A stretch of 64,000 nt of DNA from Indioceanicola profundi (GTDB lineage Bacteria > Pseudomonadota > Alphaproteobacteria > Azospirillales > Azospirillaceae), in NCBI RefSeq assembly GCF_003568845.1, contig NZ_CP030128.1, positions 248,001 through 312,000 on the forward strand, written 5' to 3'. Positions 3,305-39,831 of the stretch are shown one piece after another. The translations under genes were made by a program, and so were the position numbers. How positions within the stretch are numbered: position 1 is the stretch's first letter; each line of letters opens with the position of its first letter. The notes beneath the pieces are model-generated. The model was not told the DNA's origin, did not search any database, and worked only from the letters and a program-made list of their open reading frames with translations.

Positions 3305-5503
3305 ATGGACACCTATCAGAGCTTCCGCGACAAAGCCGCCGATGCGGCCAATGCCGAACAGCCGCAGGAAGGGTTGGACCGTCCTGATTTCGCCGGTCGC
3401 GGCCTGCAGGAGAGCAGCACATTTGCCACAAAGCTGGCCGCGGAAATCGATCGCCGCGTTCTGCTGCGCGGGGTGGCAAGTCTTCCCGTTCTGACGGTCG
3501 CCGCTGGCGGCGCCGCTTCACTTCTGGCCGGGGAAAGCGCGCTCGCTGAAAACCTTCCCCGGAAGCTCAACCCGGACCGGCTGCCCTTGACCTTCCAGCC
3601 CGTCGGAGAGACGACCGAGGACGTGATCACGGTGCCCCAGGATTACTATTCCAGGGTCCTGATCCGCTGGGGCGATCCCTTGTTCGAGTATGTCGAGCCC
3701 TTTGATCTTGAGAACCAGTCCGGTCGGGACCAGGCCCTGCGCTTCGGCTTCAATTGCGACATGGTGATGGGATTTCCCCTGCGGCGTATCCGGAGGCGCA
3801 CGGCCTCCTACATCCTGGCCGTGAACCATGAGTACACGGACGGGCGCCTGATGTTCCCGGACTATCCGGACGGCAGCGATCCGGACGCCGTGCCGACCCG
3901 GAACCATGTGGAAACCGAGTGGGCGGCGCATGGCATCTCGCTGGTCCAGATGAATCTCCGCGGCCGCAATTGGGTGTACAGCAACCGTAGCCCCTATAAC
4001 CGCCGCCTCACGGCGACCAGCGAGTATCTGCTGACCGGGCCGGCCGCCGGGAACCCGCGCCTGGTGACGCCGGCCGATCCGACCGGGACAGTGGTGCGCG
4101 GCACCTTGAACAATTGTGCCGGCGGCCGCACGCCCTGGGGAACCTACCTGTCCTGCGAAGAGAATATCGACCAGTATTTCGCGAACCGCAGCCAGATCAC
4201 CGATCCGATCATCCTGTCCGACCACACCGACTACACCATCTCGGAAGGCATGACCGGCCGGCGGTGGGAGCTGTACGACCCGCGATTCGATGTCTCCACG
4301 CCGGAGGGCATCCATGAGCCCTACCGCTTCGGCTGGGTGGTCGAGGTCGACCCGTACAATCCCCAGGACATCCCGAAGAAGCGAACCGCCCTTGGCCGCT
4401 TCAAGCATGAGGGATGCCAGGTGGTCCGCGCCCTGGATGAACAGGTCGTGGCCTATAGCGGCGATGACAGCCGCTTCGAGTATGTCTACAAGTTCGTGTC
4501 CAGCGGCCGGTTCGACCCGACGAATCCGCGCGGCGCCGCCAATCGTGACCTGCTCGACGCCGGCACGCTCTATGCCGCGCGCTTCAACGAGGACGGCACC
4601 GGCCAGTGGCTGGCGCTTGATCTGGACCACCCGGATACCGGGCCCATCCTGCGCAATGCCACCTATATGGATGCGGACGGAAACGCCGCGGCGCCGCGCT
4701 TCCCCTCCCAGGCAGAGGTGCTGATCAATGCGCGGCGCGCCGGCGATGCGGTGCAAGCCACGCCGATGGACCGGCCGGAAGACATTGAAGCCCTCAAGGA
4801 CGATGAGCTGCGCGGCAACGGCATGGTCTATGTAAATCTGACCAACAACACGCAACGCACCGACGATGGCGGCAGCACGACGCCCCCGCCGCCGGGCTCC
4901 CGGCCCAATATCCGCGTGACCAATGCCGCCAACCCCCGCGCGCCCAACCCCGCCGGCCACATCATCGAGATCAGCGAGGATGGCGGCGACAACGCGGCAA
5001 CCAGCTTCCGGTGGCGCATCTTCCTGCTGGCGGGCGATCCGCAGAACCCGTCCTTCGCCAATCCGGAGGATGGCGAACCGCAGAATGTGGATGTGCAGGG
5101 CACCTTTGATGGCAGCCGCTTTGCCTGCCCTGACAACATGACGATCGATGAGGGCTTCAATCTCTGGCTCACCACCGATGGCAATCCGGACGTGTTCCCC
5201 TGCAACGATCAGATCATTGCCGTGCAGGCGCACACCCCGCCTGACCATCCGGTTGTCGCCCTCCGCTTCGCCGTAGGGCCGAAGGGAGCGGAGCTGAGCG
5301 GACCGCTCCTGACCGAGGATGGCGACTCCTTCCTCTTCGCTGTACAGCATCCGGGCGAGGGCGGAGCCCTCTTGGGTCCGGATCAGGTCAGCAACTGGCC
5401 GGATCGGGATTTCCCCAAGCCGTCCGTCGTGGTGGTCCGCCGCAATGATGGCGGGCAGATCGGCGGTAGGATCGGGCGCCGGTCGGATAAGGACTGGAAG
5501 TAA
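3305..5503 (+). CDS. PhoX-family (DUF839) alkaline phosphatase, Tat-exported
   Basis: A 732-residue protein; ATG is preceded by AGGAG at a spacing of six. After a 48-residue polar N-terminus there is a twin-arginine signal (RR at 50-51, RVLLRGVASLPVLTVAAGG). The mature part has the PhoX/DUF839 beta-propeller phrases: AVNHEYTDGR, NNCAGGRTPWGTYLSCEEN, GRFKHEGCQVV and YSGDDSRFEYVYKFVS, which supply Ca/Fe-binding acidic residues and the metal-bound Cys in this family. The enzyme releases phosphate from organic phosphoesters in the periplasm. A Pho-box-like element lies upstream and a second phosphoester-hydrolase gene follows, so phosphate starvation control is likely. A perfect hairpin follows the stop. 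Confidence 0.9.
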   Translation: MDTYQSFRDKAADAANAEQPQEGLDRPDFAGRGLQESSTFATKLAAEIDRRVLLRGVASLPVLTVAAGGAASLLAGESALAENLPRKLNPDRLPLTFQPVGETTEDVITVPQDYYSRVLIRWGDPLFEYVEPFDLENQSGRDQALRFGFNCDMVMGFPLRRIRRRTASYILAVNHEYTDGRLMFPDYPDGSDPDAVPTRNHVETEWAAHGISLVQMNLRGRNWVYSNRSPYNRRLTATSEYLLTGPAAGNPRLVTPADPTGTVVRGTLNNCAGGRTPWGTYLSCEENIDQYFANRSQITDPIILSDHTDYTISEGMTGRRWELYDPRFDVSTPEGIHEPYRFGWVVEVDPYNPQDIPKKRTALGRFKHEGCQVVRALDEQVVAYSGDDSRFEYVYKFVSSGRFDPTNPRGAANRDLLDAGTLYAARFNEDGTGQWLALDLDHPDTGPILRNATYMDADGNAAAPRFPSQAEVLINARRAGDAVQATPMDRPEDIEALKDDELRGNGMVYVNLTNNTQRTDDGGSTTPPPPGSRPNIRVTNAANPRAPNPAGHIIEISEDGGDNAATSFRWRIFLLAGDPQNPSFANPEDGEPQNVDVQGTFDGSRFACPDNMTIDEGFNLWLTTDGNPDVFPCNDQIIAVQAHTPPDHPVVALRFAVGPKGAELSGPLLTEDGDSFLFAVQHPGEGGALLGPDQVSNWPDRDFPKPSVVVVRRNDGGQIGGRIGRRSDKDWK

Positions 5504-35992: not shown

Positions 35993-36406
35993 ATGCGGAT
36001 ATTGGTTGTAGAGGATGAGGCGCTGCTCGCCATGTGGGCCCGTGACGTGCTGGAAGGAGCTGGCCATACTGTCAGCGGGGTGGTCCAGACACGGGCCGGC
36101 GCACTGGCGTTGATCGAGACGGGAGAACCCGACCTTTTACTGATGGACATCAATCTGCCCGACGGGCGCGGGATGGGAATTGAACTGGCACGGTATGCCT
36201 GGAAACGCTGCGTGACCCCCTCGCTTTTCTTGACCGGTCAGGTGCACGAGGCCAAGGCCAACCGGGATGCGGCACTCGGCTGTCTCGGCAAGCCCTGCAA
36301 CGAATCCACATTGCTGGCCAGCATCGAAGCCGCCGGCCAGCTCATCGGTGGACGGCCGCCACAGGCCGTTCCGGCGGGACTGGAGCTGTTCAGGTCCGCA
36401 CCGTAA
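35993..36406 (+). CDS. Stand-alone receiver domain protein
   Basis: A 137-residue single-domain receiver starting MRILVVEDEALL. The acidic pair is in VVEDE, the phospho-acceptor Asp in LLLMDINLPDG, Thr in LFLTGQ and Lys in LGKPCN, so it is a competent phospho-acceptor. It has no output domain and resembles the small receivers that act as phosphate sinks or adaptors in alphaproteobacteria (CpdR/Sma0114-like; inference). It is not in an operon with a kinase; the EnvZ-type kinase lies 600 bases upstream. A CBS-domain relic overlaps its 3' end on the other strand. Confidence 0.8.
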   Translation: MRILVVEDEALLAMWARDVLEGAGHTVSGVVQTRAGALALIETGEPDLLLMDINLPDGRGMGIELARYAWKRCVTPSLFLTGQVHEAKANRDAALGCLGKPCNESTLLASIEAAGQLIGGRPPQAVPAGLELFRSAP

Positions 36407-36509
36407 GGGCGCCGCGGGCGGCGTTGATCATCATCATCTCGCCCACGGCCTCCGGCGTAACCAGCCCGACCAACCGGCCATCCGCGTCCATGACGCCAAC
36501 TGTGTTGTT
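36390..36509 (-). pseudogene. CBS-domain fragment (end of a site-2 protease-like gene)
   Basis: A 39-codon minus-strand frame, ending TGA at 36390, reads VGVMDADGRLVGLVTPEAVG followed by EMMMINAA, a very typical last strand-helix of a CBS domain as found at the C-terminus of Rip3-like M50 site-2 proteases. Nothing upstream continues it; a stop lies six codons before the quoted start. It overlaps the last 17 bases of the receiver gene. It is a truncated relic. Confidence 0.55.
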
Positions 36510-36627
36510 CGCCCCTGAGGCAGATTAGGTTCTGGCATAAGATCTGCGCCGCTGCATCGGCTGTCGGTACAGACCGGGACAACCACAGCAAGGATGCCCT
36601 GATCAAAGGCCGGAGGAGCGTGGAGGC

Positions 36628-36768
36628 TCAAGCGAGCAGCGATGTCGTCCAGATGATTGCGCCCCAAGGCACCACCGTGACCGCTGCAAGGATCATCGCA
36701 CGGATGGCCGGGGGAAGCTTCATCTCCTCGGCACGGGACTGGCTGGCGGCGATACGACAAGATGACAT
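36628..36768 (-). CDS. Small predicted membrane protein (46 aa)
   Basis: ATG 36768 has GAGGTG upstream. The 46-residue product has a polar N-terminus and one hydrophobic helix (AIRAMILAAVTVVPWGAII, then WTTSLLA) at the C-terminus. It lies 118 bases upstream of the CBS relic in the same direction and might be a genuine small inner-membrane protein or a by-product of the decayed region. No homology is claimed. Confidence 0.35.
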   Translation of the reverse strand: MSSCRIAASQSRAEEMKLPPAIRAMILAAVTVVPWGAIIWTTSLLA

Positions 36769-37828
36769 GTGACACCTCACAAGCAGGTTCTCGCCCGAGA
36801 ATTGCGCACGTTAATTACCAAATTCCTACCAGAAACAGGCGTTGCTTGCTAAAATGGCGGATGCACAAGAATTTTCTTACCAGACCGCGCTCGTTTGAAT
36901 GAGACCAAGGCAGTGTTCACGTAAGGCGCTTCCCAGGTCCCGAGATGCCCCAGCGTCTGCCAGATATGCCCAGCTACAGGAAGCATCTCCAACTTCGGCG
37001 CGATTGCGTTCACCGCGCCCCTGAGCGCAAGGAGCCACCGTCCAACAGGCCAGCGGCCCGGACTTTCGACCTCCGCGTCGACGCGAAGACGGACAGCCTG
37101 CGCTTCTATCTTCTAGGTTCTTCCGCCCGGCACCGGATCGAGCATGTCGGCTGCCGCACCCCGACGGATATCGAGGGGCCGCTGATCCTTTAGGCGGCTG
37201 CACGCGGCGCTGCGCGAACCCCAAGCGCCCAGACCGGCGGCCTTTCCGGGCGCGGCGGTGGTTCGCAATGGAAATCAATCGGTTGAGAGGCCTCTCTCCC
37301 GAACGGCCTGGAGCACTTCCCACTGTGCTTGCGCAGGTTCGCGCAAACAGGCTGATTCCGGTACCCGCGACAATGAGTTAGGCTGGCCCCGGTCGCCCCT
37401 CATGCAGAGGCGTGGATTGAAACCGACCCGGCGCGGCGTGGCGGTGGTGTCCGCGAAAGCCGGCCCCGGGGTGCACACTTGACGGTCAGCTCCGCCTCAC
37501 AGGTGCCGTAGCGTTTGTATGAGGTTCCTGGCCCTCGCCCTGGCCGGTCTCGTCTGGTTGATCATGACGATCCGCGTCTGGTATCCGGCGGAAGGATCGT
37601 TGGCCGCGACAAGGGAGCCATCAGCGACCCGCCGGCCGATGCGACCTCCGCCAGGACCCACATTGCCGGTGCCGCCTGATCAGCCGCGCGAACGACGCCC
37701 TGATGGAGATGCGCTCGGTTCCCTCCGGCCCGCAAGTCCGATCCGACCCGGTGCAAGAGACGCCCTTGCAGCAGACGGCGCAAGATGCCATTTTCATGTG
37801 GCACGTTGCGCAAGGTTCGGAGAGGGAC
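36769..37828. other. Gene-poor stretch with an orphan CRISPR repeat
   Basis: About 1,060 bases without a convincing gene. Short frames on both strands lack ribosome sites and family features. It holds one type I-C-like CRISPR repeat (37392-37423) and the leader of the toxin-antitoxin operon. The stretch looks like decayed accessory DNA. Confidence 0.45.
37392..37423 (+). CRISPR. Solitary type I-C-like CRISPR repeat (32 bp)
   Basis: Exactly 32 bases, starting GTCGCCCCTCATGC, then AGAGG, and ending in the hallmark CGTGGATTGAAAC of type I-C repeats. Against the common form with a C5/G5 stem it has four substitutions. Two of them (T at position 9, A at position 17 relative to the G/C form) fall in the stem; the stem GCCCCT...AGAGGC keeps five of six pairs, including a compensated T-A pair. 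No second repeat lies at the expected 65-70 base spacing on either side, and no cas gene is in the window. Confidence 0.7.
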
Positions 37829-38266
37829 ATGGGAGTTGCAACGCTTCAGGAGCGCCAGCGCGTGCTGACCTCCGCCCTTCTGGGACTGGAGAGCACGCCC
37901 GGCTCCGATCTGGATGCCGTCCGGGTTGTCCGCCGCCGACTTCAGCCGGAGGCGATTTCCTCCCTGCGCCAAGCGGGGGTGGAGCGGCGCGTGCTGGACC
38001 GCATCGTGCCGCGCCGCACCTTCGAACATCGGCGCCACCGGCAGGAGCTGTTGTCGCTGGAGGAAAGTGAGCGGGCCTACCGGACGGCCAGCATCCTGGC
38101 CCTCGCCGAGGCGGTGTTCGGCCGGCGCGAGAAGGCCCTGTCCTGGCTTGCTTCGCCCAAGAGCTCGCTCGGGGGCGAGGTCCCGATGGAGCTGCTGGAC
38201 ACGGACATCGGCGCCCGTTTGGTGGAGGAGGAACTGGTCGCCATCGACGAGGGCTTCTTCGGGTGA
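37829..38266 (+). CDS. Xre/MbcA/ParS-type antitoxin
   Basis: A 145-residue protein; ATG 37829 is chosen over upstream in-frame starts because GGAGAGG sits directly before it and this gives the usual family length. The N-terminal helical HTH-like part (LQPEAISSLRQAGVERRVLDR and VPRRTFEHRR) is followed by the DUF2384 toxin-binding part (SERAYRTASILALAEAVFG, ALSWLASPKSSLGGEVP, LLDTDIGARLVEEEL). It neutralises the RES toxin encoded next by blocking its active site, and usually represses the operon. The stop overlaps the toxin's GTG start. Confidence 0.88.
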   Translation: MGVATLQERQRVLTSALLGLESTPGSDLDAVRVVRRRLQPEAISSLRQAGVERRVLDRIVPRRTFEHRRHRQELLSLEESERAYRTASILALAEAVFGRREKALSWLASPKSSLGGEVPMELLDTDIGARLVEEELVAIDEGFFG

Positions 38267-38721
38267 AGCTCTGGCGTATCAGCAATTATGCCGACCTGCA
38301 GGGGATCGGCGGACTGAGGGCGTCCGGCCGTTGGCATACCCGTGGGCGGCCGATCGTCTATCTGGCGGAAAGCCCGCCGGGCGCCCTGATCGAAGTTCTG
38401 GTGCATGTGGATGTCAGCCGGCTCGAGGATCTGCCGGACCGCTACACGCTGCTGACCATCGAGGCGGACGGGGATATCGGCTTGGAAAGCTGCGTGGACC
38501 TGCCCGATGACTGGGCCGAGAACCGGCAGGTCTCCCGCGCCGCCGGCGATCGGTGGCTGGAAGGTGCACGTTCGGCCCTGCTGCGCGTGCCGAGCGCCAT
38601 CATGCCCGGCATCTGGAACGTCCTGCTGAACCCGCTGCACCCCGATGCCCATCGGCTCCGGATCACCGGCACGGCGAGCCTGCCTTTCGACCGCAGGCTG
38701 TTCAAGATCGTCAAACCGTAG
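38263..38721 (+). CDS. RES-domain NAD+-degrading toxin
   Basis: A 152-residue toxin, GTG start overlapping the antitoxin stop. The family's Arg-Glu-Ser triad is visible: Arg in LWRISNY, Glu in GALIEVLVH, Ser in RVPSAIMPG, with the GRWHTRGRPIVYLAESP segment between. RES toxins are NAD+ phosphorylases or ADP-ribosyltransferases that stop growth by depleting NAD+ (known for MbcT and others). It is a complete, apparently functional module with the Xre-type antitoxin and sits in an otherwise decayed accessory stretch. Confidence 0.9.
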   Translation: MKLWRISNYADLQGIGGLRASGRWHTRGRPIVYLAESPPGALIEVLVHVDVSRLEDLPDRYTLLTIEADGDIGLESCVDLPDDWAENRQVSRAAGDRWLEGARSALLRVPSAIMPGIWNVLLNPLHPDAHRLRITGTASLPFDRRLFKIVKP

Positions 38722-38766
38722 CGGTCTCCCGGTCAGGGTGGTCTGGGCCATGCCCGGTCGCCCAGG

Positions 38767-39831
38767 CTATGCCACGACGTTCACCCTGGTCAGAACCTGC
38801 CCGCCGGCATGCGGCCGATGCGTGATCCAGTGCAGGAACTCCGCTCGCACCGTGTAGGTTCCAGGGGCAACATCGGCGTGACGGACCAGGATTCCATGCC
38901 GTTGCGCCGAGGTCATGAGAATGGGCTGGTCCGCCTCGATCCGCTCCGGCCTGGCATAGTCTCCCCGTGTTGGGTTCCAGCGCTGCGGGCGTCCATCGGA
39001 TTCCGCGATGTAGCAGGGAAAGGGAAAGGTCACGTGCAGCGTGCTGTAGGATGCATTCAGCACGCGGATCAGGGCCGTCCTGCTGCGGGGCACGTTCACG
39101 ACGGTATTGGCCTGCGTCAAGGTGCGGCTGTTCGGGATTCCGCTGCACAGGAAGTATTTCGGCTCGAACCGGTCCAGCCCCACATCCTCGCCGCAGATGC
39201 CGGCCTGATGGCTCAGCTCATGCCAGCGCGGGTCGACATCGTCATAGATCCAGATCGCCTCGGCCGCATAGGCCAGGTCGCGCGGTTCCAGCGGGCTGAT
39301 GTCGTCCGTGGACCGGGCGGCGTAGAGTCTGCCGGGACCGTTGGGCGGATCGACGATCAGCATGCCGTACATGCCCATCTCGAAGTGCAGCACCGTGTTC
39401 TTGTGGCAGTGATAGAAGTAGGTGCCGGCCTGCGACGCGTACCATTGGTAGGTATAGTCGCTCTTGACCTCGAAGGAGGTGTGGCCGACCCCGTCATTCA
39501 TCGGCGTCGGGTCGATCCCGTGCCAGTGGATCGTATGGGTGTTCTTGCCGGATTTCAGCTCGCAATGAACCACGCTGCCTTCATTGACGCGGATGATCTT
39601 GGACGGCCAGGTCCGGTCGCCGCCGCTGTCGTCCGGGTCCTTGAAGCCCCAGAACGGAAGCACTTTGCCGTCCGCCATCGTGACGCTGAAATCAGCGACC
39701 TGCCGGTGGAACCTCACGGTCGGCGTCAGCCTGTCGGGCGTGGCCGGACTGCTGGCGAACACCCGGCAGCCGAACTCATCGAAGGCTTCGGGATCGGCAG
39801 GGGCGCGCGGAATGATGGTCTCGTCCGTCAT
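38767..39831 (-). CDS. Multicopper oxidase-type protein, N-terminal cupredoxin partner
   Basis: A 354-residue protein; ATG 39831 has GCAGGAG upstream. It shows cupredoxin copper motifs HTIHWHG and YFYHCHKNTVLHFEMGMYG, and a later THRPHAGG. No signal peptide is obvious. It is 20 bases downstream of a second multicopper oxidase gene that has a signal; each seems to supply only part of the usual copper set, so they may form a two-chain oxidase (inference). It is convergent with the RES toxin gene, 45 bases away. Confidence 0.78.
   Translation of the reverse strand: MTDETIIPRAPADPEAFDEFGCRVFASSPATPDRLTPTVRFHRQVADFSVTMADGKVLPFWGFKDPDDSGGDRTWPSKIIRVNEGSVVHCELKSGKNTHTIHWHGIDPTPMNDGVGHTSFEVKSDYTYQWYASQAGTYFYHCHKNTVLHFEMGMYGMLIVDPPNGPGRLYAARSTDDISPLEPRDLAYAAEAIWIYDDVDPRWHELSHQAGICGEDVGLDRFEPKYFLCSGIPNSRTLTQANTVVNVPRSRTALIRVLNASYSTLHVTFPFPCYIAESDGRPQRWNPTRGDYARPERIEADQPILMTSAQRHGILVRHADVAPGTYTVRAEFLHWITHRPHAGGQVLTRVNVVA

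Follow-up and report, generated by a model that had tools for sequence, protein, structure and literature searches.

The 32-nt element at positions 37392–37423 of a 64-kb stretch of the Indioceanicola profundi genome (the whole 64,000 nucleotides that were analysed, hereafter the window) is very probably what remains of one end of a decayed type I-C CRISPR-Cas locus, whose array would have collapsed and whose cas operon would have been lost, leaving an inert relic. We put the probability of this reading at about 0.95. Judging from its sequence, the element is a true repeat of the type I-C CRISPR kind, and it is not free-standing: it is accompanied by a leader and by the tail of a cas2 gene. 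A puzzling lone repeat can thus be understood as the final vestige of an immune system that has since disappeared. The evidence for this consists of the cas2 tail, the match to type I-C leaders, the 198-nt spacing from cas2 to the repeat, the repeat's being the only one, the missing cas genes, and a comparable locus in a related genome (G008). The features that we will refer to are as follows.

36969–37024, − strand: short fragment similar to part of an ispH-like gene, just past the cas2 breakpoint (80% identity over 56 bases to an ORF of a relative)
37077–37193, + strand: 3′ remnant of type I-C cas2, with the last 38 codons in frame and the stop codon, and with the first ~58 codons gone (tblastn, DNA homology)
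37194–37391, + strand: type I-C leader, from the cas2 stop to the first repeat (nhmmer profile, length)
37212–37227: conserved leader motif GCGCGAACCCCAAGCG
37336–37348: conserved leader motif GGTTCGCGCAAAC
37392–37423, + strand: type I-C CRISPR repeat nearest to the leader; its canonical stem has a C·A mismatch (pattern, alignment, fold)

The repeat, the leader, and the tail of cas2

The repeat (GTCGCCCCTCATGCAGAGGCGTGGATTGAAAC) lies on the + strand, exactly where an earlier note on this DNA had placed a type I-C repeat of 32 bases. When the 5.37-Mb genome was searched with a 32-nt pattern for I-C repeats, allowing up to 3 mismatches, this element was the sole match (the reversed pattern, our control, gave no matches). 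It has the full 32-nt form and the I-C 3′ end, and it aligns to the first repeats of its relatives' arrays. There is one copy of its 13-base tail (CGTGGATTGAAAC) in the window, without mismatches. By itself, this tail would be weak evidence (with 2 mismatches allowed, about 1.2 chance occurrences are expected per window, or 1.24 more precisely); what carries weight is the whole 32-nt form together with its surroundings. The exact 32-nt sequence was not found in other genome contigs or in viral contigs.

The earlier note also described a stem with a compensated base pair, which does not hold up. We took the canonical stem register (C3-G21 to U9-A15) from the folds of three relatives' repeats, and in this register, the relic has an uncompensated mismatch (C7·A17). 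Its predicted fold moves to a different register (−8.8 kcal/mol, versus −9.9 to −13.3 kcal/mol for the three relatives).

No cas gene had been noticed nearby, but the 3′ end of cas2 lies upstream, its stop codon 198 nt from the repeat, with a type I-C leader in between. The ORF that ends at 37193 has VDAKTDSLRFYLLGSSARHRIEHVGCRTPTDIEGPLIL as its C-terminal residues. A tblastn search of plasmid records with this cas2 tail found 14 records (best E = 7e-7), and 13 of the 14 matches lie inside genes that are annotated as cas2 (the remaining record has no annotation). The tail is also 71–76% identical to Cas2 from the loci of six family relatives. Pfam and NCBIfam models do not match the cas2 fragment; as the fragment is short, this is weak counter-evidence. 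DNA homology to the I-C loci of two relatives sets in abruptly at 37077–37078, which means that about 58 codons of cas2 are missing together with everything 5′ of them.

To represent the leader, we aligned the sequences from the cas2 stop to the first repeat of 20 other loci, drawn from same-family genomes and from plasmid records, and built an nhmmer profile from which the relic was left out. (Two of the 20 loci, L024 and L026, are from one strain and are apparently identical.) This profile is only partly independent of the relic's leader, as the loci were picked for likeness to the relic region (some via DNA similarity across cas2 and the leader, those on plasmids via the cas2 protein alone), and it has one significant match in the 64-kb window, at 37208–37385 (E = 3.2e-11; the next match has E = 0.29), which is the normal place for a leader beside a repeat. 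The distance from the cas2 stop to the repeat is 198 nt, as compared to 169–215 nt in the 20 other loci. Overall, the cas2 tail, leader, and repeat have the order, orientation, and spacing that are normal for a type I-C locus. Rfam gave no match over 36000–39000.

The surroundings and the rest of the genome

We compared the window with the ORFs of two relatives' loci and found no remnants of other cas genes. The fragment at 36969–37024 bounds the remnant and is outside the CRISPR locus (ispH is our own reading of the relative's ORF that it matches). Farther upstream, about 95 bases (36405–36500) are 77–85% identical to six Azospirillum plasmid records; in five of the six, the annotation names a site-2 protease gene there, and the stretch looks like a decayed gene end. 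Because of these ispH-like and site-2 protease-like fragments, the region upstream of the cas2 break looks like gene debris.

Downstream of the repeat there is no second repeat, either exact or degenerate: the best 32-nt match there is 17/32, as compared to 17–20/32 elsewhere in the window. This agrees with the earlier note, which saw no neighbouring repeat, but not with its suggestion of a mini-array remnant: an array or mini-array has at least two repeats around a spacer, and this genome has one repeat. If the bases 3′ of the repeat are taken as a candidate spacer, their best target is a 29-bp match to a mycobacteriophage (E = 0.3). The first 31 bases have no exact viral match, and the candidate spacer has no convincing second site in its own genome.

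The nearby toxin-antitoxin pair is present as the earlier note described it. It lies at about 37703–38721 on the + strand. The antitoxin is of the Xre/MbcA/ParS type (PF09722), and the toxin that follows it has a RES domain (PF08808); both score above the Pfam cut-offs. The pair looks ordinary, and no link between it and the repeat is visible.

We also looked for a type I-C cas locus and a matching repeat elsewhere in the genome, as had been suggested, and neither turned up. The search for Cas proteins took in Cas1, Cas2, Cas3, Cas7, and Cas8c. Across the 5.37 Mb, there was no family match to Cas1, full-length Cas2, Cas7, or Cas8c at E ≤ 0.001, and the Cas3 model gave only sub-cut-off matches to helicases, as it did in all of the control genomes. 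With no match to Cas1, full Cas2, Cas7, or Cas8c, the genome does not show the effector and adaptation genes of a functional type I-C system. The assembly is 98.86% complete; a cas locus could have been missed because of its incompleteness, but this is unlikely.

Origin and present state of the element

We propose that recombination between repeats reduced the array to its one leader-proximal repeat and that the cas operon, as far as about codon 58 of cas2, was removed by a deletion or rearrangement. These two events could have occurred in either order. The relic would now be without activity, as there is no effector that could process or use its transcript, no Cas4-Cas1-Cas2 that could add spacers, and no spacer between two repeats. 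A relic was one of the origins that the earlier note considered, and it is the one that survives, since the origin of the repeat is evident from the leader and the cas2 tail, which lie at normal spacing from it. A point against an inert relic is that the cas2 tail and the 3′ end of the repeat are rather well preserved for DNA that is dead, perhaps because of recent decay or of residual constraint.

A second possibility, which we consider improbable, is that the leader and its one repeat are a dormant acceptor, inactive at present, that could be restarted by a horizontally acquired type I-C adaptation module. The relic does retain the leader motifs and the 3′ end of the repeat, and many relatives in the family have I-C arrays. 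Also, according to a suggestion by Touchon and Rocha, CRISPR may persist longer than cas genes do (PMC2886076). However, the stem of the repeat contains a mismatch, there is no trace of a newly added spacer, and that a site could be used in principle does not show that it is maintained for such use.

Third, the element might be a solitary repeat unit that acts as a decoy or guide on a mobile element, or it might regulate the Xre/RES pair, as in CreTA (PMC9458426). A lone repeat does lie near a toxin-antitoxin pair, and such roles have been proposed or shown for ectopic repeats elsewhere (PMC8616872; PMC9458426). This seems very unlikely, as the leader and the cas2 tail already explain the repeat's origin. 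Furthermore, these roles need an effector, and no resident I-C effector or adaptation gene was detected; in particular, a CreTA-type regulator is a repeat RNA that guides a resident Cascade against the RNA of a linked toxin, and neither Cas7 nor Cas8c was detected. The repeat also comes without a second repeat or a spacer. As for a viral solitary repeat unit, the comparison covered the cas families and viral contigs: no matching system was detected in the genome, and the viral contigs have no exact copy of the repeat.

Finally, a chance resemblance to a CRISPR repeat can be dismissed: something like the 13-base tail, with 2 mismatches, is expected about once per window, but the full 32-nt form is matched, the match is unique in the genome, and it is preceded at normal spacing by a separate leader match and a cas2 tail.

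Related loci and known systems

An exact match to the I-C repeat pattern is present in 21 of 82 genomes of the family; the 82 include the window's own genome, which is the only one from its genus in the comparison set. In another genus of the family, G080 has a partial leader and one I-C repeat, near position 3380 of the locus (L036, G080:C1:1360000-1367000); some 66 nt 3′ of this repeat is GTCGCCCTCCGCACGG, which resembles a truncated repeat. There is no match to cas1 or cas2 in the 7 kb examined. Two other relatives, in which the stretches compared are 96% identical to each other (L038, G009:C2:1805000-1810000; L040, G040:C5:21000-26000), have a lone I-C-like repeat, GTCGC(A/T)TCACGCCCCTTGGCGTGGATTGAAAC, in the same place, apparently immediately 5′ of a gene whose sequence suggests a short-chain dehydrogenase. 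Neither has a match to the leader or to cas1/cas2.

Another member of the family, G025, has a 59-repeat I-C-like array at about 862162–866037 (G025:C22:853000-880000, L039/L043/L044). Of these repeats, 58 have distinct sequences, with a variable stem and a largely conserved GTGGATTGAAAC end. Some of the spacers resemble diverged copies of one another. I-C effector-like proteins are close by (by tblastn), and tblastn found no match to Cas1 or Cas2 within the 27 kb examined around the array. The variety of the repeats could be due to drift after the loss of adaptation or to sequencing error.

The solitary repeat units (SRUs) that are known from viruses and proviruses (PMC8616872) are like the relic in that there is one repeat-like unit without an array. 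Unlike SRUs, the relic keeps a leader and a cas2 tail, and the viral contigs searched contain no exact copy of its repeat. Its closest counterparts are I-C loci of the same family (G033:C206, G006:C107, G041:C57), which share the C-terminus of cas2, the leader motifs, and the tail of the repeat, as well as the order, orientation, and cas2-to-repeat spacing. In the relic, by comparison, the array is missing, and 38 codons of cas2 are all that is left of the cas genes.

The locus in G008 (L033, G008:C22:1-9000) also has a leader and then a single repeat beside cas2. In contrast to the relic, its cas2 frame is complete and much of cas1 remains (the middle is gone), and the frames of other cas genes are broken. 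From these sequences, the G008 locus is apparently in a less advanced state of decay than the relic is, so that the two represent two states of I-C decay within one bacterial family. Also, a leader profile and a short cas2 tail can reveal a fossil that the Pfam and NCBIfam models that we tried do not see. Apart from these two points, the case is ordinary. In degraded CRISPR loci of Escherichia and Salmonella, cas genes are lost and repeats survive, and loci with one repeat are admitted (PMC2886076). There, as in the relic, repeats outlast the cas genes, but those loci have other repeat types and other hosts, whereas the relic is of type I-C.
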